DNA of 46,773 nt from Candidatus Bathyarchaeota archaeon B26-2 (GTDB taxonomy: Archaea > Thermoproteota > Bathyarchaeia > Bathyarchaeales > B26-1). The stretch covers positions 1 through 46,773 of the forward strand of contig LUCE01000025.1 in the NCBI GenBank assembly GCA_001593935.1, written 5' to 3'. A program made the position numbers and the translations under genes. Below the pieces are notes generated by a model, which ran no database searches, had not been told where the DNA came from, and saw only the letters and a list, made by a program, of their open reading frames with translations. Of the stretch, positions 7,687 to 44,075 are shown in pieces. Position 1 is the stretch's first letter, and every line of letters begins with the position of its first letter.

Positions 7687-9615
7687 TTACATGTTCCCAC
7701 GTTCTTCTAGGCGCCATCGGAAGCCCATCTCATCAACTGCGGCCGGATAGACCGCTAGGAATCTCCACCCGTCTTCTGGAGAGGTTAATGTCCTCCTTCC
7801 TCCAGCCCTTAAGGTTCCAACCTCCAGCACCCGACCCTCCGATACTCTGCAGAGATGAACCTTAAAGGGAAAATCCTCCACCAGCCTTGACCCCAAGAAA
7901 GCCTCGCCTAGGGGCCTCTCCCCATCCACAAAGGTGTCTACGACTGCATACGCGTCCTCCATAAGCGTTAACCGAACATGAAAGTCGAGACCCTTCACAT
8001 CGTGGACATCGAGCCTATTCAAGCGTGAGCTGGGCGTGATGTCCCACTCAACCATCCCCCTATAGTTGTCCCTGAAGAGGTCGCCTCCATACTTCAAGGA
8101 GGCGAAGCCGACCGGGTCAACCCTGTACTCCTCTACTCCTCTTAACTTGAGGAACCCTCTAAAGTTAGATGGTCTCCCTGAACTCTTGAACCTAAGCCTC
8201 AAGACGAGGTCATATAGGCCGTTAGCCTTCTCAATCCAGAGAAAGAACCCTCTCCCCCGAGTCTTAATCACATCTGGGCCGTCGGTCTTCGCGAGCGGAT
8301 GCGTCTTGAAGAAGGCAACCTTCACACGTTTGAAGTCTATTCTCCCACGGTTATGAAGTAACAGACCTGAGCGGAAGGTTTCAGGCTTCACTTCACCCAA
8401 CTCCTTATAAGAGACCCAGATGGGGCTCGACCAAGCTCTGGCGCCGTCCCTCTGGACGACGCGGACATAATAGTAATTGTATAATCGTCTCGGCTCCTCC
8501 TCGTCGATAAACTTCGTTGAGACCGTGTTACTGGTCCCGTAGACTCTGTGTACGGCCCTCCCGTTCTTCACGATCTCCAGTGTGTCTATACGCCCCTCTC
8601 CCTCGGCGTCCGCTCGCACCTCTATGGGTTCGCTCGGATCGTCTAGGGTCAACTCCCCGCCCATCAAGCGGCCGTTCAAAGCGAATCTCAGCCTTATCTT
8701 GGCGCCTACCACCGCGTACGCCCTTTTGGAGTGGAGGGCCTCGAAGATAGATTCCCTCGTGTTCTCGGTGGCGTAGACTCCGGCAACTCCGGCTCCCAAA
8801 GGGTTGTGGAGGAAGTACCTAGTGTACCCTGTCGAGAGGGAGTTCACCATCATCTTCCCCCAGACGTTCTTCTTCATAAGGGCCCTGAACTTGGAGCCCG
8901 GGAAGCAGTCGTGGGTGTCTCCTCCCCCTATGAAGCCCAACTTGTAGCCTCTCTCGAGAGCGTCGACGGCGAAGAACCTAGCGATGTTGTCGGAGGTTAT
9001 GCACTGGAAGGGGTTCCCATAATGCTCAAAGACCCCCCATATGGAGACGATCTCGACCAACCTATCGAACTTCTCGTTGAAGAAGTTCCAGTCGACTGGG
9101 AACTGTGTTAAGGAGGGGTGGTGAGGTATGGTTATAGCCTCAACTTCTGCCTTTTCCAGGTTTCTCCAGAGGTCTCGGGGAGTCATCCCCCTCTCGAAGC
9201 TGGGTCTACTCCCGTAGTCTACACATCTGAAGAGGGGAGGGTCGTCCTCAAGGAAGTATACGTTACGGTGTCCGTAGGCTAGGGAGGTCCACTCGTAGGC
9301 TTGGAGAGTTGTGAACTTGCCTGGAGAGTACCATTCTGAAGTCCTCTCCTTTAGGAAGTTCCACATCTCGTCGCTCATCGAGAAGTCATGATCGGTCAAG
9401 GCTGCGAAGTCTAAGTCGAGTTCATTCTTCGCCCTGTAATAGAAGAGGTCCACGCTCTCTTCAGGTCTCTCCGCTTTGGAGTAGTCGCTTATCACGCTCG
9501 TGTGTACGTAGCAGTCTACGCCCCTGAGGTCTCTGCCCCTGCAGACTCCACAGAGAGAGTAGTTTGAGTGGCCATGTATATCCCCGAAGAGGAGCTTAAA
9601 CTCCGAGTAGGACAT
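7687..9615 (-). CDS. PHP-domain (DUF3604-like) metal-dependent phosphoesterase embedded between rps12 and rps7
   Basis: A 642-aa protein. The PHP metal motifs are clear: GDIHGHSNYS (residues 11-20), ALTDHDF (about 72-78), a central IPHHPSL, and IGGGDTHD. An unusual Cys-containing insert (CGVCRGRDLRGVDC) follows the first motif. After the hydrolase part come FALNGRLMGG and Ig-like strands ending YYYVRVVQRDGARAWSSPIWV, then a further beta-rich C-terminal domain of about 240 aa with no family I recognise. PHP proteins hydrolyse phosphomono- or diesters at a two- or three-metal site. The substrate here is unknown, and no signal peptide is seen. The gene is co-directional with S12 upstream (73-base gap) and S7 downstream (172-base gap). 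It is a paralogue of the C-terminal half of the gene at 34332-36632, sharing for example 'FIFEALxSxRAYA' and 'AWSSPxWV' segments. Confidence 0.85.
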   Translation of the reverse strand: MSYSEFKLLFGDIHGHSNYSLCGVCRGRDLRGVDCYVHTSVISDYSKAERPEESVDLFYYRAKNELDLDFAALTDHDFSMSDEMWNFLKERTSEWYSPGKFTTLQAYEWTSLAYGHRNVYFLEDDPPLFRCVDYGSRPSFERGMTPRDLWRNLEKAEVEAITIPHHPSLTQFPVDWNFFNEKFDRLVEIVSIWGVFEHYGNPFQCITSDNIARFFAVDALERGYKLGFIGGGDTHDCFPGSKFRALMKKNVWGKMMVNSLSTGYTRYFLHNPLGAGVAGVYATENTRESIFEALHSKRAYAVVGAKIRLRFALNGRLMGGELTLDDPSEPIEVRADAEGEGRIDTLEIVKNGRAVHRVYGTSNTVSTKFIDEEEPRRLYNYYYVRVVQRDGARAWSSPIWVSYKELGEVKPETFRSGLLLHNRGRIDFKRVKVAFFKTHPLAKTDGPDVIKTRGRGFFLWIEKANGLYDLVLRLRFKSSGRPSNFRGFLKLRGVEEYRVDPVGFASLKYGGDLFRDNYRGMVEWDITPSSRLNRLDVHDVKGLDFHVRLTLMEDAYAVVDTFVDGERPLGEAFLGSRLVEDFPFKVHLCRVSEGRVLEVGTLRAGGRRTLTSPEDGWRFLAVYPAAVDEMGFRWRLEERGNM

Positions 9616-21103: not shown

Positions 21104-22357
21104 TTAGGCCTTGATCTTTCCGATTACATAACGGCTATAGAGTGGACACTGCTCTTTCTGGGGTTCGAAGCATTCTCCTTCAGTTTCGCATCTAGCTCCG
21201 AGTTTCCCTGGGAAATCCCCTTTGATGCTCTCAGCTATAAGCCTATACTGGTTCCTAATCTCGAGTTGAGCCCTCATGCAGGCTCTAAGCCTCACGGTCT
21301 CGTAGATGTTTCTGTTGCCGTAGATTGCGCAGTAAAGGTCCATGATCTTCCCTAAGGGAGTGGAGTAGACGGCTAGCTGATGGTTTCCTTGGGGGAGGAG
21401 GTTGTGGGAGCCTTTGGGGGGGGGGTTAAAATGTTTTCTCAAACTTGTGGGTATGTGGGGCGGCGTGTAGAAGTCCTTCTCCCGTATGACCGACTCCCAG
21501 GAGGGCCACCAGAAGTATACCTGCCTGTTCCTCACGTCTTGGTGGAAGCTTGCGATCGACCTTCTGGAGTTCCAGACTAGGGCCTGTGTATACGGGTTAT
21601 AGTAGATTCCCCTCGGCTTCTCGGCTAGGAACTCTTTGAGGAGGCCTCTCTGGGGGTCCTCGTCCTCTGAGAGTAGAGGCATCCTTGAGGCCGGCATCTC
21701 GGTGGATGGCATGGAGAAGCCGTTCTCCTCCTCGTTCCACTTTGATAGGGCTTCGCCGACGGCTCTAGCCTCCTCGAAAGGTTCGTTTCTGAGGTAGTTC
21801 GCCCACTTGGCTAGGTCTCTACCGAGCTGTATGTGAACTATCTCCTCGGTCACCGTTGATAGGGGAAGTATGCACCTAGCATCCTCCTTCGCGGTCTTCG
21901 CATCCCTCAACATGCGATAGAGGTTCATAGAGTCTTCCTCAACCTTCTTTAGAATCCTGTCTTGATGGGTGATGAAGCCCCTGTGTTCGACGTATCTGAG
22001 GGAGAGCTCCGTTCCTACGCCTTTGATCCCTCTATTCGCGCCTATCGGTATCCAGCTCAAGAACGTAAAGAGCCTAGAGACCGACTTTATGTAGAAGCCG
22101 TACCTCTCCATCTCCCCGACATCGCCGTGATGATACTGCAACACCTTCCTCACGTAAGGCTTGGAGACTTCGGGATGCCTATTCACGTACGCGATGAACT
22201 CCTCTATTGTTCTTATAGGTTCGCTGACGACGCCCTTCATAGCCTTCTGCACAGAGACGAAGATTCTGACCGCCGGTATGTCGTAAGGCCGATCAGATTG
22301 AAGATAGTATATCTCCCCGCCGAAGGGGGTCTTCCCAAGCAGAACCTCCTCAATCAC
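21104..22357 (-). CDS. Divergent, enlarged ThyX-like (flavin-dependent thymidylate synthase superfamily) protein
   Basis: 417 aa against 220-260 for usual ThyX. The fold is recognisable in order: VRKVLQYHHGDVGEMERYGF and KSVSRLFTFLSWIP (ThyX: ...GHxSxxEH..ftF.ieg.SR...), then RGIKGVGTELSLRY at 109-122, which aligns with the ThyX motif RHRxxSxNExSxRY (first Arg, Glu, Ser, Arg and Tyr kept; His, second Arg, Ser and Asn changed). Next AKEDARCILPLSTVTEEIVHIQLGRDLAKWANYLRN matches the 'ARxxLPxxxxT' helix, and the C-terminus (LRACMRAQLEIRNQYRLIAE... ARCETEGECFEP) matches the ThyX tail with its 'AQxEIR' and Cys-rich end. A large extra segment (about 215-345) separates the last two blocks. Thymidylate synthesis is doubtful because of the changed active site. 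No other thymidylate synthase is in the window. Confidence 0.7.
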   Translation of the reverse strand: MIEEVLLGKTPFGGEIYYLQSDRPYDIPAVRIFVSVQKAMKGVVSEPIRTIEEFIAYVNRHPEVSKPYVRKVLQYHHGDVGEMERYGFYIKSVSRLFTFLSWIPIGANRGIKGVGTELSLRYVEHRGFITHQDRILKKVEEDSMNLYRMLRDAKTAKEDARCILPLSTVTEEIVHIQLGRDLAKWANYLRNEPFEEARAVGEALSKWNEEENGFSMPSTEMPASRMPLLSEDEDPQRGLLKEFLAEKPRGIYYNPYTQALVWNSRRSIASFHQDVRNRQVYFWWPSWESVIREKDFYTPPHIPTSLRKHFNPPPKGSHNLLPQGNHQLAVYSTPLGKIMDLYCAIYGNRNIYETVRLRACMRAQLEIRNQYRLIAESIKGDFPGKLGARCETEGECFEPQKEQCPLYSRYVIGKIKA

Positions 22358-31507: not shown

Positions 31508-34255
31508 TCAGACCCACTTGAAGACCTTCCTCTCGTAGAGGTACTCAGGCATCCATAAGAACCCTAGGGACGCTATCGACCCTATTAGAAGCCACTCATA
31601 TATTCCTAACGGAACTGTTCCGAACATCATCTGCAGAATCGGTACATACACTATTATGATGGACGAGGCTAGAGAGGTGATCTCGGCGACGAGCAGAAAC
31701 TTGTTGGAGGTCCAGCTCAGCTTAAAAGCCGATTTAGTCTCCGAACGACAGTTCCAGACGACCACGAGCTCACGTAGAGTCGCTTGGATGAAGCATATGG
31801 TCTGAGCCTTCATAAGCCTCTCGGGCTCTGACAACCCCCAAGCGAAGAACCCATACTCATAGACGAGGAGGAAGACAAAGGTCGTTCCGAGATACTGGGA
31901 TATGAAGGAGACTATGATCTGTAGAAGCCTTCCGTAGAGGATGCCTTGTTTCGGGTCCCTTGGGGGACGGGCCATGACGTCGTCTGTCGGGGGGTCCATG
32001 CTCAAAGCCGTCGCTGGGCCACCGTCGGTGACTAGGTTGATCCAGAGGATCATCGGCGCGGTCAGTGGAAGGGGCATTCCCAGAATGGCGAAGGTCGCTA
32101 TGACCGCTAACTCGTCGAAGTTGCAACGCAGTAAGAAGAATGCGAATTTTCTTATGTTGTCGTAGATTATGCGGCCGTGCTTGACGGCGTTGACGATGGT
32201 AGCGAAGTTGTCGTCCATGAGGATCATGTCGGAGGCCTCCTTGGTCACGTCGGTCCCGGTTATACCCATGGCGACCCCGATGTCCGCGTTCTTCAAGGCA
32301 GGTGCGTCGTTAACGCCGTCCCCGGTCATAGCGACGATGTGGCCTTTCTTCTTCAGGGCTCTGACTATACGGAGCTTATGCTCGGGAGAGACCCTTGCGT
32401 ATACCTTTACGTCCTCAACGATCTCCTCAAACTCTTCATCGCTCAGCTTGTTGAGTTCTTCACCTGTTAGGATTAGGCCCTCGTTCTCCAACATCCCGAT
32501 CTCCCTAGCCACGGCGACGGCGGTCAGCTTGTGGTCACCGGTTATCATAACCGGCCTTATCCCCGCTTTCTTGCAGAGGTGGATCGCCTCCTTGACCTCC
32601 TCCCTAGGCGGGTCGATCATACCCATCAGCCCGACGAAGACGAGGTCGTTCTCAATCTTCTCGGTGTACCTATCCTTCTGGACGTCGAGCCTTCTGTAGG
32701 CCATCCCGAGGACCCTCAAGGCGTTCTCTGCGAACTTCTCGTTGACCTTTAGGATCGCCTTTCTCTTCTCGGCGGTGAGTCTCCTCTCAACTCCGTCCTC
32801 TAAGATTCTGCTGCAACGTTCTAGGATAACTTCCGGGGCTCCTTTGACGTAGGCGTGAACCTCTCCTTCCGGGGTCTTATGCACAGTCGTCATCCGTTTC
32901 CTCTCGGAGCTGAAGGTGATCTCGGCTATGCGCGGATAGATCTTTTCGAGCTCCTCTTGAGCCATGCCTGCCTTCGCAGCGGCAACTATCAAGGCTCCCT
33001 CGGTTGGGTCTCCAGTTACGCTCCATCCGTCTTCATCATTGTTTAGACGTGAGTTGTTGCAGAGTGCTCCTATTCTCAGGAGTAGCGCTAGGTCCTCGTC
33101 CACTTCCGGGTTGACGGGCTTCGAGTTTAAGACGAACTCTCCTGTCGGTTCGTAGCCCGAACCGGTGACTTCATAAGTTTTCCCGGCGCAGTACGCTCTG
33201 CGAACAGTCATCTCACCCTTCGTTAGGGTTCCAGTCTTATCTGAGCAGATAACAGTTGTTGAACCCAGCGTCTCGGCGGCCGCGAGTTTCCTGATCACGG
33301 CGTTGTGTCTGGCGAGTTCCCTCGCGCCGAGGGCCAACCCAATGGTTACGATGGCGGGTAAACCCTCCGGGACGGCTGAGACGGCTAAGGCGATGGAGAT
33401 CATGAAGAACTTAAGGAGATCCGTACTTTCCGGGTTTCTAAGGACCTCCAATACGAAGATGAGTGCAACTACGAGAATTATGAATTTTGAGAGTTTCTTC
33501 GCGAAGTTGTTCAGTTTCTCCTTGAGCGGAGGAGTCTTCTCCTCGACCTCTTGGATCATCCCCGCGATCTTCCCGAACTCCGTCTTCATGCCGGTCGCGG
33601 TTATGACCGCTCTCCCCCGCCCGTAGATTGTGTGGGTTCCCATGAAGACCATGCATTTTCTATCGCCTATGGGCGCGTCCGGCCTAACGGGCTCCGTGTC
33701 CTTCTCGACAGGGGTCGACTCCCCGGTTAGGGCTGCCTCGTTGGTCCTCAAGTCTATCGCCTCTATCAGTCTGCCGTCCGCCGGTATCCTATCCCCGCTC
33801 TCGAGGAGAACGATGTCTCCGGGAACCACCTCGACGGCCGGTATGACGATTTCTCTGCCGTCCCTCAGAACTCTAGCCCTCGGGGCGGTCAGCCTCCTTA
33901 AGGCCTCCATCGCCTTCTCGGACCTGTACTCTTGGACGAAGCCAACGATAGAGTTAAGGACCACTATGGCTCCTATCGTGATGGCGTCCGCATACTCTTC
34001 TAGAGAGGGTTCACCAGGTTCAATATGTGCGCTTATAAGCGAGAAGGCTATCGCGAAGAGCAGCATCAAGACGAAGATGTCCTTAAACTGGTTTAGGAAG
34101 ACCTTTAGGGCGCTGACCCCTTCACTCTCCACGAGCTTGTTGGGTCCATATTCTATAAGTCTCCGCTGAGCCTCCTCACTACTCAATCCTTCAGGAGAAG
34201 TCTTCAGAGCCTCTAAGACCTCTCTGACGCTCTTGGTATGCCAACGCTCGCTCAA
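31508..34255 (-). CDS. P2A-type cation-transporting (probable Ca2+) ATPase
   Basis: 915 aa with about ten membrane helices. Core motifs: actuator TGES (177-180), M4 PEGLP (296-300), phosphorylation DKTGT (339-343), KGAPE nucleotide loop, MITGDHKLTA, and the hinge MTGDGVNDAPAL. The residues that bind Ca2+ in SERCA are mostly kept: Glu of PEGLP, Asn and Glu in M5 (CNFDE), and Asn, Thr and Asp in M6 (WINLVTDGGPATAL). This favours Ca2+ over H+ or Na+/K+. The N-terminus VREVLEALKTSPEGLSSEEAQRRLIEYGPN is the cation-ATPase N-domain. Full length for the type. It is the first gene beyond the PHP cassette, on the same strand, with a 76-base gap. Confidence 0.95.
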   Translation of the reverse strand: MSERWHTKSVREVLEALKTSPEGLSSEEAQRRLIEYGPNKLVESEGVSALKVFLNQFKDIFVLMLLFAIAFSLISAHIEPGEPSLEEYADAITIGAIVVLNSIVGFVQEYRSEKAMEALRRLTAPRARVLRDGREIVIPAVEVVPGDIVLLESGDRIPADGRLIEAIDLRTNEAALTGESTPVEKDTEPVRPDAPIGDRKCMVFMGTHTIYGRGRAVITATGMKTEFGKIAGMIQEVEEKTPPLKEKLNNFAKKLSKFIILVVALIFVLEVLRNPESTDLLKFFMISIALAVSAVPEGLPAIVTIGLALGARELARHNAVIRKLAAAETLGSTTVICSDKTGTLTKGEMTVRRAYCAGKTYEVTGSGYEPTGEFVLNSKPVNPEVDEDLALLLRIGALCNNSRLNNDEDGWSVTGDPTEGALIVAAAKAGMAQEELEKIYPRIAEITFSSERKRMTTVHKTPEGEVHAYVKGAPEVILERCSRILEDGVERRLTAEKRKAILKVNEKFAENALRVLGMAYRRLDVQKDRYTEKIENDLVFVGLMGMIDPPREEVKEAIHLCKKAGIRPVMITGDHKLTAVAVAREIGMLENEGLILTGEELNKLSDEEFEEIVEDVKVYARVSPEHKLRIVRALKKKGHIVAMTGDGVNDAPALKNADIGVAMGITGTDVTKEASDMILMDDNFATIVNAVKHGRIIYDNIRKFAFFLLRCNFDELAVIATFAILGMPLPLTAPMILWINLVTDGGPATALSMDPPTDDVMARPPRDPKQGILYGRLLQIIVSFISQYLGTTFVFLLVYEYGFFAWGLSEPERLMKAQTICFIQATLRELVVVWNCRSETKSAFKLSWTSNKFLLVAEITSLASSIIIVYVPILQMMFGTVPLGIYEWLLIGSIASLGFLWMPEYLYERKVFKWV

Positions 34256-34331: not shown

Positions 34332-36632
34332 TTACCTATAAACCCACACGGGACTGGACCAAGCTCGGTTCCCCTTGGCCACGGCCACGTTGGACGGATA
34401 ACTGGGAACCTTACAACCCTGCGCAACCTTAACGTAGTAGTATGACCACCCTCGAGGGCACTCCCCATCGACGTAGCGGAGGCTAATCTCCCTACCAGAA
34501 GACTTCACGGTATGGATGGTCTCCCCGTTTCTGACTACTTCAAGGCTGATGGGGCGTTTGGTTCCCTCAGCTTGAACCCTTATTTTCGGTGCTCCTCTCG
34601 AACGGCACTCCTCCCCCATGAAGGCGTCGTCAACCCTAAAGTCTAAGAATATTCTGGAGCCGTTGGTGGCGTAGGCACGTCTACTCTTAAGTGCTTCGAA
34701 GATAGCCTCGCGTGTGAAGGCTCGAGCGAAGACCCCAGTAAGTGAGCCGCAGAGACCGGGGTTTCTCCTGTGAGAGTCTCCTCCGCCAACAAACCCGAAC
34801 CTGTAACCCTCCGCTAAGTGTCTATGTATCCACTCCGGCTCATCGATGTAGACCGCCCAGCCTGAGCAGACCTCGACGTTACGTTCCCGTTCGGAGGCGC
34901 TCAGCCTCCACTTCTGATGGTGAGGCTGCATCATCCCGTTGGTGCCCTCGATGCACCGGCTTAACCCCTCTATCCTCCTTGAGGGAGGCTCAGTCCACCT
35001 GAAGATCGGTTGATCGTCCGTCTGGTAAAGGATGGTCCTATGGTTGTATGGTAGGCCGTCCCCGTTCCTCTTCGTCCACTCGTAGCCGCTGAAGACGATG
35101 AATCGGCCCGGAGAGTTGAACCTCATGCTGTAATGCTGTGAGAGGAACCAGTCTGAGTTAGACATTGGCATTAGGTAACAGTCGTTATCCGTAATTGCGC
35201 AGAAGTCTAAGCCAGCCTTATCCCGAGCGTAGAAGAGGAGCTCATCCAGTTCACCCTCCGCATCGGCGGAGAGCACAGAGTGGCAGTGGAGGTCACCCCA
35301 ATACAGCCTATACTTGACCCCGCGAACCACAACGGTGCGGCGCCTAACACTCTCCCTAAACCCAACAAGGTCCAAAGGGAACCAGCCCGACCACTCACCC
35401 AAACGGAACCTTGGACAACCCTCAGGGATAGGCCACTCAGTTGAGAGGATGTGGATATCCCCAAGCGTCTCCTCGAGCGCTCCCCTTGTACAGATCCACA
35501 TCTTTTCATCTAACACTGATCCGCTGTTCGGAGTTGAGTAGAAGAGATGCCCTCTGTGCAGGATCACTTCGGGAGACCATGTGTGGCCGTCGAAGAGTCT
35601 GCCGCAGAGTAGACCTGTCGTCTTCGTCGTCGAGCCGTCGTGGGCCTCCTTCCTCTCCCATAGGAGCCAGACTCCTCCGGAGCCGTCGGGCATAAGCATG
35701 GGTCTCCTCCTCCTGCCGAGGTAGCCCCAGACACCTGTCTTGACCGGGTGAACCTTCGGGAGTAGGCCGTGACAGAGAGCCGCCAAGTCTAGGCCCCCGT
35801 CGCGGTCCGGCATTTGGCTCCATCCCACGCCGTCAAAACGGGCGCATCGAACCGTGGGCCACTGGTCCACAACCCCGTCCACGTTGGCGACGTCGGCTGA
35901 GCGGAGCCAAGCCGCCCAAGCTCTCTGGTAGGCGTCTAGGGTCAGTGCGGGTATGAACTCCCACTCTGAGTCGGAGCTCACCCTCATGATGTCTGTCCAT
36001 TCTCCACCTATTCTGCTTCTGGAGTAGATGTTGTAGGTGCCATTAGAGTAGGAGTCCCAGACTATGTGTACGTCGCCGTTTCTCCCAACGGCTACGACGG
36101 GCCTGAAGTTATGTCTCATACGTCCAGAGACCCTTACTTCTCGAAGCCACCTTCCGTCTCGGAAGGCTCTAGTCTTTATGGCGCTGCCCCCACCTCTATG
36201 TGCCTCCCAGACCACCCAGACGTTCCCTCTAAGGTCGGTTCCGATCGATGGTGAAAGGGCGTCCTCGTCTTCTCGGCTGATCCTGTACTCCTCAGACCAC
36301 TCCTCTCCATCGAATAGACTGCAGTATAGGCCCCAGCCTCCGCCTCTCTTAGAAGACCAGACCGTGAAGGCATCCCCCTCCGGACCGGATGCCACTTGAG
36401 GCCTGTAACATGATGAGGAGACACTTAGACGGTGTGGATGTGAAAGTTCCTCCTCGTCCCACAGTTGGGCTACGATCGCCTCCCTCCGGTCCGTGAAGAG
36501 GTCCCAGACCACCCAGACGCGGCCTTCACAGTCCCGGGTAAAGGAGAAGCCTCCAACGTGGCCCTCCCTCCCCGTGTGCAGGTTCACGCTCTCCCACCTC
36601 AAGCCTTTGAGGTTCACTTCGGCCTCCTCCAT
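34332..36632 (-). CDS. Beta-propeller fused to a PHP/DUF3604-type phosphoesterase
   Basis: 766 aa. Residues 1-400 have repeated strands of the type 'D..G.vwvvWd..' (for example GRVWVVWDLF, GDAFTVWSSK, GNVWVVWEAH, GDVHIVWDSY, QRAWAAWLRS, GGVWLLWERK), spaced about 50 aa with Asp/Gly-rich turns, as in sialidase/BNR-like propellers. At 440 a PHP-type hydrolase begins: YWGDLHCHSVLS (444-455), FCAITDNDCY (about 478-486), QPHHQKW and FVGGGDSHRRNP. The second motif reads TDND where TDHD is usual, so one metal His is Asn. A C-terminal Ig-like tail (YYYVKVAQ...AWSSPVWVYR) matches the tail of the PHP protein at 7687-9615. No signal peptide is seen. Its start overlaps the end of the secreted protein gene upstream by 19 bases, so they are coupled. 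Confidence 0.8.
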   Translation of the reverse strand: MEEAEVNLKGLRWESVNLHTGREGHVGGFSFTRDCEGRVWVVWDLFTDRREAIVAQLWDEEELSHPHRLSVSSSCYRPQVASGPEGDAFTVWSSKRGGGWGLYCSLFDGEEWSEEYRISREDEDALSPSIGTDLRGNVWVVWEAHRGGGSAIKTRAFRDGRWLREVRVSGRMRHNFRPVVAVGRNGDVHIVWDSYSNGTYNIYSRSRIGGEWTDIMRVSSDSEWEFIPALTLDAYQRAWAAWLRSADVANVDGVVDQWPTVRCARFDGVGWSQMPDRDGGLDLAALCHGLLPKVHPVKTGVWGYLGRRRRPMLMPDGSGGVWLLWERKEAHDGSTTKTTGLLCGRLFDGHTWSPEVILHRGHLFYSTPNSGSVLDEKMWICTRGALEETLGDIHILSTEWPIPEGCPRFRLGEWSGWFPLDLVGFRESVRRRTVVVRGVKYRLYWGDLHCHSVLSADAEGELDELLFYARDKAGLDFCAITDNDCYLMPMSNSDWFLSQHYSMRFNSPGRFIVFSGYEWTKRNGDGLPYNHRTILYQTDDQPIFRWTEPPSRRIEGLSRCIEGTNGMMQPHHQKWRLSASERERNVEVCSGWAVYIDEPEWIHRHLAEGYRFGFVGGGDSHRRNPGLCGSLTGVFARAFTREAIFEALKSRRAYATNGSRIFLDFRVDDAFMGEECRSRGAPKIRVQAEGTKRPISLEVVRNGETIHTVKSSGREISLRYVDGECPRGWSYYYVKVAQGCKVPSYPSNVAVAKGNRAWSSPVWVYR

Positions 36633-38668
36633 CGCCTAAGAAACCGTATCAATAAGAAGGCCGCCGCGAAGGCGGCTGCGCCTAAGCCTGCTCCCAAGAT
36701 GATCTTCCTCAACCTCTCGAAGTGATGGACGTCGAGGAGGGCCGCCTCGTTGACGAGATTCAGAGCCTCCTCAAGGTTCTCCCTCGCCTCTTCTAAACGT
36801 TCTTCTCTGAAGGCCCTCTGGGCCTCTTCTAGGCGCTTTAAGGCTTGGGAGATCGCCTCCTTCGCCTCGGGTGAGACGAACCGGTTCCGTTCCTCGTCTG
36901 TTAGGAGTGGAGCTGGCAAGAGGTTCCGCGGCGTCCTCATGGACGTAACTCTCGGGTCTGAGGGTTCCTTCGGGAACATGATCAACGCCATAGTCTCGAT
37001 GAAACTCGTAGAGTTAACCTCCATGTTATACCTCGGCTGCTGGGTGGTTGCCACCCTCTCCGCGGTTCCAACCCTTATGGTTGAAGGCTCAACGGTGAAG
37101 TCGGATGCCTTCGGCTTCAAGGGTCCATACTCGACCCGGTAGATTCCGTAGACGCTCGGGTTCTCGAGGAGGTCGACCCCCCGGGCCAGTTCCCCGGCTT
37201 CTATAGGTCGCTTCCATACTTCACGCCAGCCTCCATCCTCTAGCTCATATAGTCTAAGAGTCAGGTTGGAGGGATCATACTCGAAGGTGGCGCTCGACAC
37301 CCTGTCGTAGAACCGGACCTTCGGAGCGTCCTCTAACCTGACTTGGAAGAGGGTTGAGAAGTAGAGCTCTCTGCCAACCTCTGGTTTCGAGGTGGACATG
37401 AGCTTGTATGCTGTGATGAGGTCGTTCGGTGAGGCTGGTTCTGGTTTCGGTTTGGTCGGTACGCGATGTAGTGTGTAGAACTTGATGGCTGGCTCCAGCC
37501 CTTCGATCAGGTGGTTGACGTCCATCCCTGCCTTGTAGAGGTAGAGTAGGGCGGTCATGCTGTCTGAGACGCAGACTAGCTCGTGTGATGAGACCTTCCT
37601 CTCAGCCAGAGGGTTGTCCGGTCCATCGTAGTACCACCTGCCGTCGATCTCGAACGATCTGCAGAGGTACCAGAGGAGTCCTCTGGCCAGTTCCATCATC
37701 CTTCCGTCCCGTTTATGGTAGGCTGCGGAGGCTAGGCCCTTGGCTACTAATGCCTGGATGTTATTCGTTACGTCTTGGGCTGGTGGGAGTTCCCTCCTGT
37801 TCGGGAAGGATGGGTATCCGGGGTCATATCCGGTCCAGTAGTATGGGATTCCTTTCCATAAGCCCTTATGGAACCCAAATCTGGGAACTTGGTAGTAGAG
37901 GAAGTTGTATGCGGCGTCTAGGTACTTCTCCTCCCCCGTCAGCTCATACCATTTGACGAGCCAGAAGACTGGGCTTCCGGCTAGGACGTGATGGTCAGGC
38001 TCGAACCTTATCCATGAGTATCCGTAGGCGTCGGTCCAGGTCTCCATCATCCAGTCGGGCCATCCGTACCTCCACTTGGTGACGTTCTTCCTCTCTTGGA
38101 CGGCCTCCCACTCCTCCCGGTAGAAGTCCTCGAGGAACCTGTTGCGACCCACGTCGTCGTATTGAGCGTAGAGAGCGAAGTCGGCCAGTTCCTGTGCTCT
38201 ATAATAGAAGAGGAAGGACCTGTGGCTGAAGATGTACGGGTAATACCTGCTCATGTAGCCTAAGCCGCTCCAGCGGGGAAAGAGCCCCTGGTCTCCGTAT
38301 CTGGCATGGTAACTGTTGGATGAGACAACCGGGTGGTAGGGAATATCTAGGGCTATATATGCCTCGTTCTCCGTGTAGCCTTCGAGGCCCACAGTCTTCT
38401 TCAGCCTCTTAGTCTTCTCGAAGGTTATAGTCGATGAGGAGTCGAAGGAGAAGGGGCATCCCTTGAAGAAGTAGTATCGAACCAAGGGTATGCTCCAAGG
38501 GTCTCCACCGTTCCACGTCAAGTTAACGTCTGGTAAGAGGCTCCAGAACGCCTCGGGCTCCAGCTCGTCGACTATGTCTACGGTCTGGGCTCCATTCAGT
38601 TCAGCCCGATTTGAGATTCCCAAGAGGGCCACCAACAATATAGCCTTAAACGTTAGGTTACTCATCAT
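36614..38668 (-). CDS. Secreted, membrane-anchored protein with probable (alpha/alpha)-barrel domain
   Basis: 684 aa. Signal peptide at 1-28 (LTFKAILLVALLGISNRAEL), a C-terminal membrane span (about 655-677, IILGAGLGAAAFAAAFLLIRFL) and basic tail, preceded by a coiled-coil stalk (about 610-650, ALKRLEEAQRAFREERLEEARENLEEALN). The outer part holds Trp/Tyr-rich repeats such as DAAYNFLYYQVPRFGFHKGLWKG and LVAKGLASAAYHKRDGRMMELARGLLWYL that resemble the helical barrels of glycoside hydrolases and lyases. I do not recognise the family or the catalytic acids. A beta-strand region (about 440-570) follows. Function is inferred to act on extracellular polymers. Middle gene of a leftward three-gene unit, 59 bases after the M19-like gene. 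Confidence 0.7.
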   Translation of the reverse strand: MMSNLTFKAILLVALLGISNRAELNGAQTVDIVDELEPEAFWSLLPDVNLTWNGGDPWSIPLVRYYFFKGCPFSFDSSSTITFEKTKRLKKTVGLEGYTENEAYIALDIPYHPVVSSNSYHARYGDQGLFPRWSGLGYMSRYYPYIFSHRSFLFYYRAQELADFALYAQYDDVGRNRFLEDFYREEWEAVQERKNVTKWRYGWPDWMMETWTDAYGYSWIRFEPDHHVLAGSPVFWLVKWYELTGEEKYLDAAYNFLYYQVPRFGFHKGLWKGIPYYWTGYDPGYPSFPNRRELPPAQDVTNNIQALVAKGLASAAYHKRDGRMMELARGLLWYLCRSFEIDGRWYYDGPDNPLAERKVSSHELVCVSDSMTALLYLYKAGMDVNHLIEGLEPAIKFYTLHRVPTKPKPEPASPNDLITAYKLMSTSKPEVGRELYFSTLFQVRLEDAPKVRFYDRVSSATFEYDPSNLTLRLYELEDGGWREVWKRPIEAGELARGVDLLENPSVYGIYRVEYGPLKPKASDFTVEPSTIRVGTAERVATTQQPRYNMEVNSTSFIETMALIMFPKEPSDPRVTSMRTPRNLLPAPLLTDEERNRFVSPEAKEAISQALKRLEEAQRAFREERLEEARENLEEALNLVNEAALLDVHHFERLRKIILGAGLGAAAFAAAFLLIRFLRRWRRPK

Positions 38669-38727
38669 AAGGTTGGTGCCTCAACTGGTGTGGGTTGAAG
38701 AAGGTTTCTTCCCGACGTCATCGTTCC

Positions 38728-39879
38728 TCATCCCACAACCCTCTTGAAGACTCTCAGATAGTTGCCGCCTAGAATCTTCTTTATCTCCTTCTTTGAGTAG
38801 CCTCGGCTCATGAGGCCCTCAGTGATCTTCGGGAGCTCGATGGGAGTACGTATCATCGTGTAGTATCCGTCTGAACCCCAGCCGACGTGGTCCACGCCCG
38901 CAACCTCCACGAGGCGGTCGCAGTGGTCCAGCCACTTCTGGAACCTAGGGTCATCGATGCTCCATCCTCTCCCATCCCGATACTTTGGACCCGGACCTAT
39001 GAAGACGGTCATCAAGCCTATGAGGCCGCCCTTCTCGGCCAGAGCCTTAGCCTGATCATCTGTTAGGTTTCTCGGATGGTTGAATATGGCTCTTGAGTTG
39101 GAGTGGGAGCAGATAACTGGGTCTTTTGAGACCTCTAAGACGTCGTAGAAGCATCTCTCGCTGGTGTGGGAGAGGTCTATGAGCATGCCGATTCTGTTCA
39201 GTTCCCTTACGACGGCGACGCCGAAAGGTGTCAACCTACTATCAGCTCGGGTTTGAACCCAGCTATCGACGACGAGGTTACGACCCCACCTGGCCAAGAG
39301 CATATCGCGGTATCCAAGCCTGTAGAGAACCCTCAAGAGCTCCAGCGAGTCCTCTATGATCTGGACGCAGTTGCAGTCCAGTACGACGCCGACTTTTCCT
39401 TCCCTCTTAACCCGCAAGAGGTCGTCGTAGGTCCTTATGAGGGTGAGCCTCTCGGGGTTGGCCTCTATCTCCTTCATAACCACGTCGTAGTAGACGAGAG
39501 CGTAGGTCAGATGGTTCCTCGGCGAGTCTCTCGACCTGTAACGGCCGTGAGGCTCGGGAGGCCAAGCGAAATCGTACCAGTCTTGGGGCCATTCTTCAAG
39601 CCAGTCTAGGTCCGCCGACTCACCGGCCTTCACGAACCAGCTCACATTCGAGTAGGAGAAGCCGTCGGGCATATCGATCCCGAAGACGTCTAAGCCTCCG
39701 GCGATAACCTTCGGGAGGTCGAATATCGATTCACTTCTCCTCGAGAACCACCCCGGCTTCGCCGAGGTTCCAGCCGCCCTCAAGGCTGAGGCGAAGCTTG
39801 TGGTGTACATATCTACAACCAACGTTTCTCTGGTGAAGGCTACTGCCTCGTCTCTAATATCCTTGGAAAAGCCGCTCAT
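38728..39879 (-). CDS. Peptidase M19 (renal dipeptidase)-like protein lacking several metal ligands
   Basis: 383 aa from the preferred ATG 39879 (GGTGGGGGT upstream; GTG 39897 also in frame). Retained M19 marks: LIDLSHTSERCFYDVLEVSKDPVICSHSNSRAI with two His ligands, HPRNLTDD with the substrate-binding Arg, and VGWGSDGY with the final Asp. Lost marks: the N-terminal H-x-D (VVDMYTTS in place of DGHND), the bridging Glu (Asn in LDCNCVQIIEDSL) and the TH of the catalytic loop (AR). The first metal site is therefore gone, and the usual dinuclear zinc dipeptidase chemistry is doubtful. No signal peptide. It is the first gene of the cassette with the secreted barrel and the propeller-PHP protein. 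Confidence 0.8.
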   Translation of the reverse strand: MSGFSKDIRDEAVAFTRETLVVDMYTTSFASALRAAGTSAKPGWFSRRSESIFDLPKVIAGGLDVFGIDMPDGFSYSNVSWFVKAGESADLDWLEEWPQDWYDFAWPPEPHGRYRSRDSPRNHLTYALVYYDVVMKEIEANPERLTLIRTYDDLLRVKREGKVGVVLDCNCVQIIEDSLELLRVLYRLGYRDMLLARWGRNLVVDSWVQTRADSRLTPFGVAVVRELNRIGMLIDLSHTSERCFYDVLEVSKDPVICSHSNSRAIFNHPRNLTDDQAKALAEKGGLIGLMTVFIGPGPKYRDGRGWSIDDPRFQKWLDHCDRLVEVAGVDHVGWGSDGYYTMIRTPIELPKITEGLMSRGYSKKEIKKILGGNYLRVFKRVVG

Positions 39880-39918
39880 AGACAGAGTTACCCCCACCGG
39901 AGTTTGACGCCTTAATAT

Positions 39919-40086
39919 TTAATTCTTGTGGGTCCCATCTGAGCAGCAAGTCTGCTCATAAGAGGGGGGCGGCGAGGCCTCCTCCCCGTGGGTCGGCTGC
40001 AAATTCAACCACGCCGTCTCGTATCCGAACCCGCAGACTTCGCAGAGGTAGATGTCTCTCCCATCCTTCCTACTCTTCTTGACCAA
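39919..40086 (-). CDS. Small CxxC zinc-binding protein (hypothetical)
   Basis: 55 aa from TTG 40086 (GGTGGGG upstream; TTG 40089 or GTG 40095 also possible). The N-terminus MVKKSRKDGRDIYLCEVCGFGYE has the start of the small archaeal zinc-finger family that reads CxxCGxGYxxxxxAxxCexxC. After this the match ends and the rest is low complexity with a CC pair (QTCCSDGTHKN). It may be a truncated or frame-disturbed member, or a variant with CxxC...CC ligands. A TATA-like GCTTTTATAGTG (40139-40150) sits about 55 bases upstream. Confidence 0.5.
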   Translation of the reverse strand: MVKKSRKDGRDIYLCEVCGFGYETAWLNLQPTHGEEASPPPSYEQTCCSDGTHKN

Positions 40087-40095
40087 CAACCCCAC

Positions 40096-40407: not shown

Positions 40408-40495
40408 TGGTGCGGGGAGTGGGATTTGAACCCACGAACCCCTACGGGACAGGCTCCTGAAGCCTGCGCCTTTAACCTGGCTTGGCTATCCCCGC
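40408..40495 (-). tRNA. tRNA-Leu (anticodon CAG), CCA encoded
   Basis: On the minus strand GCGGGGA pairs with TCCCCGC, the D stem is GCC/GGC, and the anticodon stem CAGGC/GCCTG encloses TTCAGGA with anticodon CAG. A long variable arm (TCCCGTAGGGGTTC) marks it as a class II tRNA, and the T arm is GTGGG-TTCAAAT-CCCAC. Discriminator A at 40411, CCA at 40408-40410. No intron is seen. Confidence 0.96.
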
Positions 40496-40547: not shown

Positions 40548-43500
40548 TTAGGCTTTTACGGGCTGTGAGGCTTCTTTGAATGTTGTAGAGATTACGTGGG
40601 AAGTTCCGTCACGCATGTAGACCCCGTAGACCTTGTCAGCCTTGTTGATCATCTCAGGTTTTAGGGTTATGACGATGAATTGAGAATTGAATGTTTCGTC
40701 GTTGAGAAAGTCTCCGAGCTTCTCGACGTAGAAGGGGTCGAGGTGCGCGTCGATCTCGTCGAAGATGTAGAAGGATGCGGGTGTGAACTCTTGGAGGGCT
40801 AAGAGGAAGGCAACGGTCGCCACCGACCTCTCCCCGCTGCTCGCCCCACTTATCAGGATCTGGGGCTTACCCCTGAACTCAACGGTCATGTCGACCCCTC
40901 CGGCGAAGGGGTTCTCGGGGTTCTCCAGCCTCAACGTGGCTTTCCCCCCGTCCGTGAGTCTGGAGAAGTACCGTTCCAACCTCTCGTTTATCTCCCTGAA
41001 GGCGCGCATGAAGGCCTCAGTCTTCTTCCGTTCTATCTCCTCGATGAAGTTTATGATGGCTTGCCTCTCCCTCTCGAGCTCGTTCATCCTTAACGAGAGC
41101 TCCTTATACCTCGAGACCTGTTCGATGTAATGGACGTCCGCCAACTGGTTGACGGCTCCTATGCGTTCCAGCTCCAACCTCATGGTTCTCAGGAGCGAGT
41201 CGACCTCTGCCAGACGTTCCTTAGAGACCCGTACAGGCTTGCTGTAGCCCAGCTCCTCAAGCCTCTGCCTATACTGTTCCATCCTCAGCTGGAGGGTCTG
41301 GAGGTCGAGCCTCACCCTGTTCAAGAGGTTGCTAGCCTGCTCATACTCTTCGTCTAGAACCCTCAGCTTCCTATCGATGCTGTCGATCTCAGCCGTGAAC
41401 TTCTCAGCATCCTCCCTAGCGCTCAACAGGGATTCTTGAAGTCTCCCCTTCTCCTCCTCTAGGCTTCTGATCTTCTCCTCGACGAGCGTCCTCTCTCTAA
41501 CGGAGTTCTCAATCTCCTCCTCTAGGCTCCTCATCTGCTGCAGAACCTTCGAGAGTTGGGCCTCAGCGTTCTTTAGGGAGGGGTTGAGCACCCTCTCCAG
41601 CTTCGACTTAAAAGTCGAGAGGTCGACGTCGACCGCGCTAAGCCTACGCCTAACGTCCTCAACCTCGTATCCCAAACTCTCCCTCTGAGCCTCAAGCCTC
41701 CTAATCTCGGAGAGGTTGACCTTCCTCCTAAGTTCAGCAATCTCCCTCCTCAGAGACCTATCTTTGCTCAGAATCTCCGCTCGCCGAGTCTTGTACCGTT
41801 CCATCTGGGCCTTCTCTCTCTCAACAAGGTCCCTTATCCTCTTCAAGTTCTCGTCGGCCCGCAAGAGGTTCTCGTTGGCCCTCTCGATGCTTCTGCCAAC
41901 CCTCTCTATCTCGCCATCAAGCCTAGCCATGGCCTCGGTCAGCCGGGCGGCCTCCTCCCTGATCTCGGGAATCTCCTCCTCTATCTCCTCTATCTCGTTC
42001 TTCCTACGCTCCAAGTGTTTTTGGAGGGCTCTAACAGCCTCGTCTAGGCTCTTTATCGCGGTCTCACTCGGGACGATGGATGAGAGGTCTATAGGAGCCC
42101 TGTAGTATCCGCTCTCAACCCCACCTCCAGCCTCGTAGAGTTCTCCGTCGACCGTGACGACCCTGTAACCCTTAAGAGAGGACTCCAAGGCTGCTTTCCT
42201 ATTCAAAGCAAGGAAAGTGTCCCCGAAGACGAAGAGGACGGCTGGCCTAAGCCTCTTCGGACACTTTATTATGGAGGAGACGCTTCCACCCAGACCCTCG
42301 ATCTCTGAGGGAGCCTCCATCTGGGTTGGAGAGATTCCCTTTAGAGGGATTATCTTCACCCTGCCGAGTTTGAGGCGCCTCAAGGTCTCGCTGCACGTGA
42401 AGGCGACGTCGAAGTCTTGTACGACTATGGAGTCGAGCCAACCGGAGGCCGCCGCCTCGACAGCCTTCTCATATCTCTTCTCCACCCTTATGAGTCTCCT
42501 AAGCCGCCCGTATATGCCCTGTATTGCTCCTAGCTCACCCATCTCCTCTAGGCTTCTCAAGGCTTCCTCTTCAGCTCTAACCTTCTCGACGACCTCCCTC
42601 TGAGCCGAGAACTCTATGACCGCGTCTTTGGCGGCCTCGGCTATCCTCCCAGCCTCTATAATCTCTCTCTTGGCGGCCTCCCTCTGCCTCGAACGGCGTT
42701 CAAGGGCCTCCTGAAGAGACTTGAGGCGTTCCTCCTGTTCCTCGCGGACCTTCATCAAGTCGTTGAGAGACTCCTTAAGCCTCTTCAGAGAGGCTGAGAA
42801 CTCCCTCCTTCTGGACTCCATGTCTCTAAGCCTTTGGGTGTATATTGAGACTATGGAGCGGCTCTTAGCGTGGTTACTGCGGACGATCACGAGTTCCCGG
42901 CTGAGTTCGTTGAGCTGCTTCTCTAGATCTCTAACTCTCTTCCGGTTCTTGTCGAGGTTCTCCTTTATCTCCGCCAACTCCTTCGAGAACCTCTCATATT
43001 CGCTCTGCTTGGCCTCCATCTCCTCCGCTATCTTCTTGCGTCTGGACATAATCTCTTGAACCTTGAGGTTGGTTTCCTCTATCTCCCTCCTTATGGCTTC
43101 GATCTGCTGCCTGCTGTTCTCGCGGACTCTCCTCAACCCCTCGAGGCTCGATCTACAAGAGTTTATCTTCGTGGTCAGTTCTGTCAGCCTCGACCTTAGG
43201 TCTCCCATCTGAACTTGAACCTTCAAGAGGCTTGTCTGCCCCTCTTCGGAGCTGAGCCTTCTCCACTCAGCCTCTATCTCGCGCCGTTTTGTCCTCAGCT
43301 CCTCGCGGCTCTTCCTAAGGCTTTCAACCCTCTCCTCGAGTTCCTTCTCTCTCAAACTTAACTCGTTTACCCTCTCTTCGGCCTCAAGTAAGTTCTGGGA
43401 GACCTTGACGGCCTCCAGCCGTCTAATCTGAGACTGGATGAACCTATGTCTAAGTAGGTCGTTCCTCTCCCTCTCTAAATCTTCAACCCTCTTCTGAACC

Positions 43501-44075
43501 TCGCCAACCCGGCCCATGGCCGTCCGTATGGCTATCTCGGCCGCTTTGAGTTTTCCTTCAGCCTCCGCCTTCTCAGAGTCGTACTGGGCGATGCCGATCA
43601 TGTCCTCGATCATCCTCCGCCTCTCGTTAGAGGTTATCTCGGCCAACCGCGTGATCGTCCCTTGGAGAACGATGTTGTGTCCATGGTGCCCGATCCCCGC
43701 CATCGAGAGTATCTCCATAAGGTTTGTCCTCGAGATTCTCCTCCCGTTTAGCCTAAAGACGCTTTGGCCCTTCCGGTTTATCTCTCGCGAGATAGTTACG
43801 GTGCTCGTCTCGACGGGGATACGCTGATCCGAGTTGTCGAACTGGATGAGGACCTTAGCCGACCTGCTCCGAGGCCCTATCAGGCTTGGGAGGCTCTCAG
43901 CTCTAAGCCTCTTAGCGCTGAGGTCGCCCAGACAGAATAGAACAGCGTCGATGAGGTTACTCTTCCCACTCCCGTTCGGCCCAGTTATTACAGTTAATCC
44001 CTTAGAGAGCGTGATCGTCGTCTTTAGGTTGAAGGTCTTGAAGCCCTTGATCTCTATCTTCTTCAGATACGGCAA
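40548..44075 (-). CDS. smc: Chromosome segregation protein SMC
   Basis: 1175 aa, full length. Walker A GPNGSGKSN at 32-40, a long coiled coil, a hinge (about 510-650, with AIQGIYGRL, GWLDSIVVQDFDVAF, YRVVTVDGELYEAGGGVESG), a second coiled coil, then the C-terminal ATPase half. The signature motif reads ISGASSGERSVATVAF where most SMCs have LSGGEKSLTALA, so it is enlarged and altered. Walker B FYIFDEIDAHLD is normal. The dimer folds chromosomal DNA using ATP. The start is TTG 44075, with a TATA box TTATATAG at 44090-44097. No ScpA or ScpB gene is in the window. It follows DUF2096 on the same strand. Confidence 0.96.
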   Translation of the reverse strand: MPYLKKIEIKGFKTFNLKTTITLSKGLTVITGPNGSGKSNLIDAVLFCLGDLSAKRLRAESLPSLIGPRSRSAKVLIQFDNSDQRIPVETSTVTISREINRKGQSVFRLNGRRISRTNLMEILSMAGIGHHGHNIVLQGTITRLAEITSNERRRMIEDMIGIAQYDSEKAEAEGKLKAAEIAIRTAMGRVGEVQKRVEDLERERNDLLRHRFIQSQIRRLEAVKVSQNLLEAEERVNELSLREKELEERVESLRKSREELRTKRREIEAEWRRLSSEEGQTSLLKVQVQMGDLRSRLTELTTKINSCRSSLEGLRRVRENSRQQIEAIRREIEETNLKVQEIMSRRKKIAEEMEAKQSEYERFSKELAEIKENLDKNRKRVRDLEKQLNELSRELVIVRSNHAKSRSIVSIYTQRLRDMESRRREFSASLKRLKESLNDLMKVREEQEERLKSLQEALERRSRQREAAKREIIEAGRIAEAAKDAVIEFSAQREVVEKVRAEEEALRSLEEMGELGAIQGIYGRLRRLIRVEKRYEKAVEAAASGWLDSIVVQDFDVAFTCSETLRRLKLGRVKIIPLKGISPTQMEAPSEIEGLGGSVSSIIKCPKRLRPAVLFVFGDTFLALNRKAALESSLKGYRVVTVDGELYEAGGGVESGYYRAPIDLSSIVPSETAIKSLDEAVRALQKHLERRKNEIEEIEEEIPEIREEAARLTEAMARLDGEIERVGRSIERANENLLRADENLKRIRDLVEREKAQMERYKTRRAEILSKDRSLRREIAELRRKVNLSEIRRLEAQRESLGYEVEDVRRRLSAVDVDLSTFKSKLERVLNPSLKNAEAQLSKVLQQMRSLEEEIENSVRERTLVEEKIRSLEEEKGRLQESLLSAREDAEKFTAEIDSIDRKLRVLDEEYEQASNLLNRVRLDLQTLQLRMEQYRQRLEELGYSKPVRVSKERLAEVDSLLRTMRLELERIGAVNQLADVHYIEQVSRYKELSLRMNELERERQAIINFIEEIERKKTEAFMRAFREINERLERYFSRLTDGGKATLRLENPENPFAGGVDMTVEFRGKPQILISGASSGERSVATVAFLLALQEFTPASFYIFDEIDAHLDPFYVEKLGDFLNDETFNSQFIVITLKPEMINKADKVYGVYMRDGTSHVISTTFKEASQPVKA

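Follow-up and report, generated by a model that had tools for sequence, protein, structure and literature searches.

The 46,773-nucleotide window analysed here (positions 1 to 46,773 of contig LUCE01000025.1, Candidatus Bathyarchaeota archaeon B26-2) contains a three-gene cassette that we interpret as a lineage-specific accessory operon, built largely from families expanded in this genome, and not as a conserved system. The genes encode an M19-fold protein with a depleted metal site, an orphan surface protein and a fusion of a beta-propeller with a PHP metallohydrolase. Tentatively, we propose that the operon serves the uptake and breakdown of a sugar polymer or sugar conjugate present outside the cell. 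This one-off, unusual combination consists for the most part of familiar components; its new parts are the orphan barrel protein family and the propeller-PHP fusion, whereas the M19 loss and the DUF3604 enzymes belong to known kinds.

Organization of the cassette

In the ORF list of the window, all three genes are on the minus strand (Table 1). The propeller-PHP gene and the barrel gene overlap by 19 nt (36614-36632), and a 59-nt gap (38669-38727) separates the barrel gene from the M19 gene, in exact agreement with the arrangement of three leftward genes given in a preliminary description made from the letters of the window. Because the genes share a strand and overlap or lie close together, we read them as an operon. 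Third-position GC is host-like across all three (0.68-0.71), and the codon-usage distance is 0.34-0.40 in the annotated frames compared with at least 0.57 in the other frames and antisense. Codon use and third-position GC resemble those of the rest of the window, and all three genes are coding. The cassette sits between a P-type ATPase gene and a tRNA-Leu gene. A short frame on the minus strand between the tRNA-Leu and the M19 gene (about 39920-40095), with a CxxC zinc-ribbon-like start (YLCEVCGFGYE), is perhaps a truncated gene.

Table 1. Coordinates of the cassette genes, their flanks and a related gene in the window.
Feature	Position	Strand	Basis
766-aa fusion: sialidase/lectin-like beta-propeller (~25-435) and CehA/McbA-type DUF3604 PHP metallohydrolase (436-766), predicted cytosolic	34332-36632	-	
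Orphan protein, 684 aa: signal sequence, likely alpha/alpha-barrel (~95-400), C-terminal helical stalk, transmembrane anchor with basic tail	36614-38668	-	
M19-fold (membrane dipeptidase family) protein, 389 aa, without signal peptide	38728-39897	-	PF01244, residue mapping, tree
P-type cation ATPase, flank outside the cassette	31508-34255	-	Matching position in sister genome G001 (L089 7752-10715)
tRNA-Leu (CAG), upstream boundary of the cassette	40408-40495	-	ARAGORN; identical site in sister genome
SMC ATPase, flank outside the cassette	40548-44075	-	85% identical protein in G001
DUF3604 paralogue without propeller	7687-9615	-	PF12228, 91 bits; 77.6% identical copy in G001

An M19-fold protein with a depleted metal site

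The M19 protein belongs to the M19 fold family, as indicated by its match to PF01244 (E 5e-72, 243 bits against a cut-off of 26). We aligned it to the genome's own normal dipeptidase (contig C66), taking the metal and substrate roles of the positions to be those of renal dipeptidase. The HxD motif is replaced by Y31/T33 (YxT), the bridging Glu by N176 and the substrate-binding His by R203. H244, H265, R276 and D343 are retained. An active dipeptidase carries a dinuclear zinc site formed by HxD, the bridging Glu and two further His, of which only H244 and H265 are left, and the protein is thus predicted to be unable to form the normal dinuclear site. The first metal site had already been described as missing; the loss is wider and takes in the bridging Glu and also the substrate His. 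Canonical membrane dipeptidases (C66; PDB 3id7 and 1itq) have the same fold, and C66 is the closest sequence (42-47% identity), but C66 retains HxD, Glu and His whereas the window protein lacks all four residues and carries an insertion of about 45 residues ahead of its NHLTYAL stretch.

Metal-depleted M19 proteins are already a known kind. Non-canonical M19 amidohydrolases such as PDB 2i5g have likewise lost HxD and the bridging Glu and kept the second-site histidines, and a family in related archaea without HxD and Glu has this trait in common with 2i5g. The window protein, in contrast, falls outside that clade: in the tree it groups with C66 and L093 (support 90/91) and not with C1, L024 and L025 (98/96). 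We therefore rejected its assignment to the 2i5g-type clade in favour of a place among the canonical dipeptidases, but its branch next to canonical C66 is long (1.3) and the placement is not firm. On sequence grounds, we regard it as a diverged relative of the normal dipeptidase C66.

The genome has a second metal-depleted M19, on contig C1, which clusters with the 2i5g-like group. Since the window copy clusters with the canonical dipeptidases and the C1 copy with the 2i5g-like group, the two losses of the metal site look independent, although both branches are long and call for caution. If so, this is a case of an M19 dipeptidase losing its catalytic metal site separately from the known non-canonical clade. 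The C1 gene row (L014 1542-6008) begins with an M24 peptidase gene of the creatinase/prolidase type, followed by the genes for a 361-aa alpha/alpha-barrel-like protein with weak matches to pectate lyase, GH88 and GH127 and for the second M19 without HxD/Glu, and by further small unassigned ORFs. A metal-depleted M19 beside a barrel-like gene is thus found twice in the genome, in a comparison made after the fact. No homology over the fold is detectable between the window barrel and its barrel-like counterpart on C1, and nothing beyond a 30-residue helix motif was supported when their homology was considered. Two other non-canonical M19 genes of the 2i5g-like type (L079 and L080), both in genome G028, are clustered with genes of the amidohydrolase and Gfo/Idh types (named by eye), and these clusters may help to assign a function to the 2i5g-like clade.

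An orphan surface protein

The barrel protein has two hydrophobic stretches in hydropathy analysis, residues 1-19 and about 655-680, and is the only product of the cassette that looks exported; the M19 protein and the fusion have no signal. No Pfam or NCBIfam family matches it. Matches to GH127 (E 0.05-0.17) and AprG (E 0.24) were weak, and the structure model, made from two sequences, was too poor for use (mean pLDDT 35.5). The top Foldseek matches of this low-confidence model were mostly alpha/alpha toroids at E 0.05 or worse, with sugar epimerases, GH88/GH105 and a polysaccharide lyase among them. The preliminary description had proposed a membrane-anchored extracellular protein with a probable alpha/alpha barrel: hydropathy supports the anchor and adds an N-terminal signal, and the fold is plausible, though its matches are weak and the model poor. 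The (alpha/alpha)6 sugar enzymes (cellobiose 2-epimerase/AGE, GH88, GH105, GH127) share weak sequence and fold hints with the barrel protein; unlike them it has a membrane anchor and motifs of its own (WRYGWP, WTDAYGY, EPxHH and GLWxG), and none of them gives a significant match.

Its sole relative, a 456-aa protein about 40% identical over the core, is encoded in the same genome on contig C29. The gene of this paralogue and a PL22-like oligogalacturonate lyase gene are arranged tail-to-tail, with a URO-D family gene nearby (L015 7447-9977). No member of the family was found in the other 162 of 163 genomes of the order, in the other 397 of 398 phylum genomes sampled, or on the plasmids and viral contigs searched. 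Two pattern scans of 84,980 species genomes gave no relative either, the patterns being tight enough to detect close relatives only.

The propeller-PHP fusion

The third protein passes the curated cut-offs of both PF12228 (DUF3604; 60.2 bits against 20.4) and NF038032 (CehA_McbA; 86.9 against 80), and is thus a member of the CehA/McbA (DUF3604) family. Among the 50-residue blades of its propeller, three are strong and two weaker, the latter still scoring higher than 200 shuffles. The propeller is also seen in the structure model, in which the PHP part is mostly above pLDDT 85, and in Foldseek its closest solved folds are sugar-binding lectins, sialidases, BT3686 and ulvan lyase PL25. The cut-offs, repeats, model and fold matches together bear out the initial description of a beta-propeller joined to a DUF3604/PHP hydrolase.

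The PHP ligand-motif residues H449, H451, E518, H571, D619 and H621 are present, and the His of motif II is Asn (TDND). H449, E518, H571 and D619 are invariant in 16 relatives and H621 nearly so; all five are kept in the fusion. Several histidines are required for catalysis in CehA and McbA (PMC8292978). This requirement and the retention of the invariant residues favour the metal-dependent hydrolysis proposed below. The C-terminal 330 residues share the PHP fold and the ligand motifs with the CehA/McbA family (NF038032; PF12228), but the sialidase/lectin-like propeller replaces the other N-terminal domain of the family paralogues, and TDND replaces TDHD in motif II. In other genomes the relatives of the propeller match the propeller alone and those of the PHP part match that part alone, so the fusion is seen in this genome only.

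Eight DUF3604 genes are present in this 1.9 Mb genome. Besides the fusion there are seven others (window 7687-9615 and contigs C9, C20, C29, C59, C61 and C64), which, as far as they were read, have a different N-terminal domain or none. Several of the paralogues read GDLHGQ where motif I has HxH, which means that the family is variable at its metal site.

Conservation and history of the locus

In the same-genus genome G001, a single contig carries the ATPase, a 174-aa YdjM-like ORF, the tRNA-Leu and the SMC gene, and the cassette is absent. This sister genome has the same flanks and tRNA without the cassette, in support of an accessory operon. G001, which is 84% complete, has neither the barrel nor a window-type M19 elsewhere, and a gain in the B26-2 lineage is a simpler reading than a loss in its sister. 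The neighbourhood is not conserved in other genomes, and the genes do not co-occur in any of the 398 phylum genomes. The preliminary description had named the lack of a conserved neighbourhood in other archaea as a result that would speak against it, and this is the result obtained. A conserved archaeal cassette was accordingly rejected, the barrel being confined to one genome (163 order and 398 phylum genomes) and the closest sequenced relative having the same flanks with nothing of the cassette between them. The suggested co-occurrence of the 7687-9615 paralogue with the cassette did not hold either: this gene has relatives in other genomes and a 77.6% identical copy in cassette-free G001, and so does not travel with the cassette.

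Three other origins were considered and rejected. For an integrative element at the tRNA, there was no integrase ORF nearby, and the tRNA 3' end matched only the tRNA itself, giving no att repeat. Recent foreign DNA was rejected on the host-like codon use and GC, and a contaminant contig because the flanking SMC shows 85% identity and synteny with its counterpart in G001. The gene content is archaeal, with thermosome-like genes and genes of the proteasome (named by eye).

Possible function of the cassette

In the proposed sugar operon, the anchored alpha/alpha-barrel protein would bind, cut or epimerise the substrate at the cell surface, and the fusion would hold imported fragments with its propeller. 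The PHP domain, through its metal centre, would hydrolyse an ester, phosphoester or carbamate bond on these fragments, and the M19 protein might act on a non-peptide fragment with its reduced metal site or serve as a binding subunit. Several observations favour a sugar substrate: the barrel paralogue adjoins the PL22-like gene, the family being confined to this genome; the closest folds of the propeller are those of lectins, sialidases, BT3686 and PL25; and the top matches of the low-confidence barrel model are sugar enzymes (E at least 0.05). The seven further DUF3604 genes, the window sulfatase with its SGSH_C domain, and the second metal-depleted M19, whose barrel-like neighbour weakly matches pectate lyase and GH88, point the same way. 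The lectin-like and sialidase-like propellers, however, also have non-sugar roles, the barrel model has a very low pLDDT, the barrels adjoining the two metal-depleted M19s show no fold-wide homology, and characterised CehA/McbA enzymes cleave carbamates and not glycans. The cassette, moreover, contains no transporter or other sugar gene. It resembles polysaccharide utilisation loci in combining a surface protein and an intracellular hydrolase in a single strain-variable operon, but differs from them in having no transporter, SusC/D-like pair, known CAZyme or regulator. Of the pathway on an extracellular polymer proposed in the preliminary description, the shared pathway is weakened by the missing neighbourhood conservation, and an extracellular glycan is still suggested by the propeller and by the PL22-like neighbour of the barrel paralogue. 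Its statement that no named system has these three parts holds within the searches made.

It is also conceivable, though unlikely, that the cassette serves the catabolism of a small molecule, in which the PHP domain would hydrolyse a carbamate or ester as CehA and McbA do, the M19 variant would be an amidohydrolase acting on the product and the barrel a surface binding protein. The PHP part is above the CehA/McbA cut-off and the named members are carbamate hydrolases (PMC8292978); the M24 creatinase/prolidase-type gene that starts the C1 row and the amidohydrolase and Gfo/Idh-type genes (named by eye) near the non-canonical M19s of G028 fit as well. Carbamate cleavage, however, is established for CehA and McbA themselves alone, a family whose cut-off the fusion just passes, and a propeller and an anchored barrel favour a large substrate.

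Since no neighbourhood is conserved anywhere, co-function rests on the operon layout of a single genome, and the genes might share no pathway at all, three independent acquisitions or duplications having become adjacent by chance and the M19 being a duplicated dipeptidase that drifts after loss of its metal site. The zero co-occurrence in the phylum genomes and the long M19 branch beside canonical C66 agree with this. We nevertheless give it a low probability: the overlap, the short gap and the host-like coding signal suggest co-expressed, maintained genes, and the M19 gene has an unbroken frame of 389 codons with H, H, R and D of its second half retained.

Surface glycan genes are often strain-specific, and a modification of the cell's own envelope (S-layer glycans or lipid-linked sugars, not food) would suit the strain-specific, predicted membrane-anchored barrel with its helical stalk and the variable tRNA-side locus, but it is quite improbable for a cassette that has no glycosyltransferase, flippase or oligosaccharyltransferase and whose other two products look cytosolic.

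If the sugar operon is real, this archaeon has a private breakdown operon made from duplicated hydrolase families and an orphan surface protein, and one of the many uncharacterised DUF3604 enzymes is linked to a plausible sugar substrate; its reach is limited because the cassette is not widespread. A bolder form, which we consider very improbable, is that the barrel protein is the founder of a new family of carbohydrate-active enzymes anchored at the cell surface and, in addition, that in this lineage M19s stripped of their dinuclear site have repeatedly been recruited as neighbours of alpha/alpha-barrel enzymes, to use a different chemistry on the sugar products of these enzymes.

Other genes of the window

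The sulfatase at 273-1727 has a match to the N-sulphoglucosamine sulphohydrolase C-terminal domain (SGSH_C) and may point to the use of sulfated glycans. At 21104-22357, the window encodes a 417-aa protein with a match to ThyX (flavin thymidylate synthase), longer than the usual ThyX.
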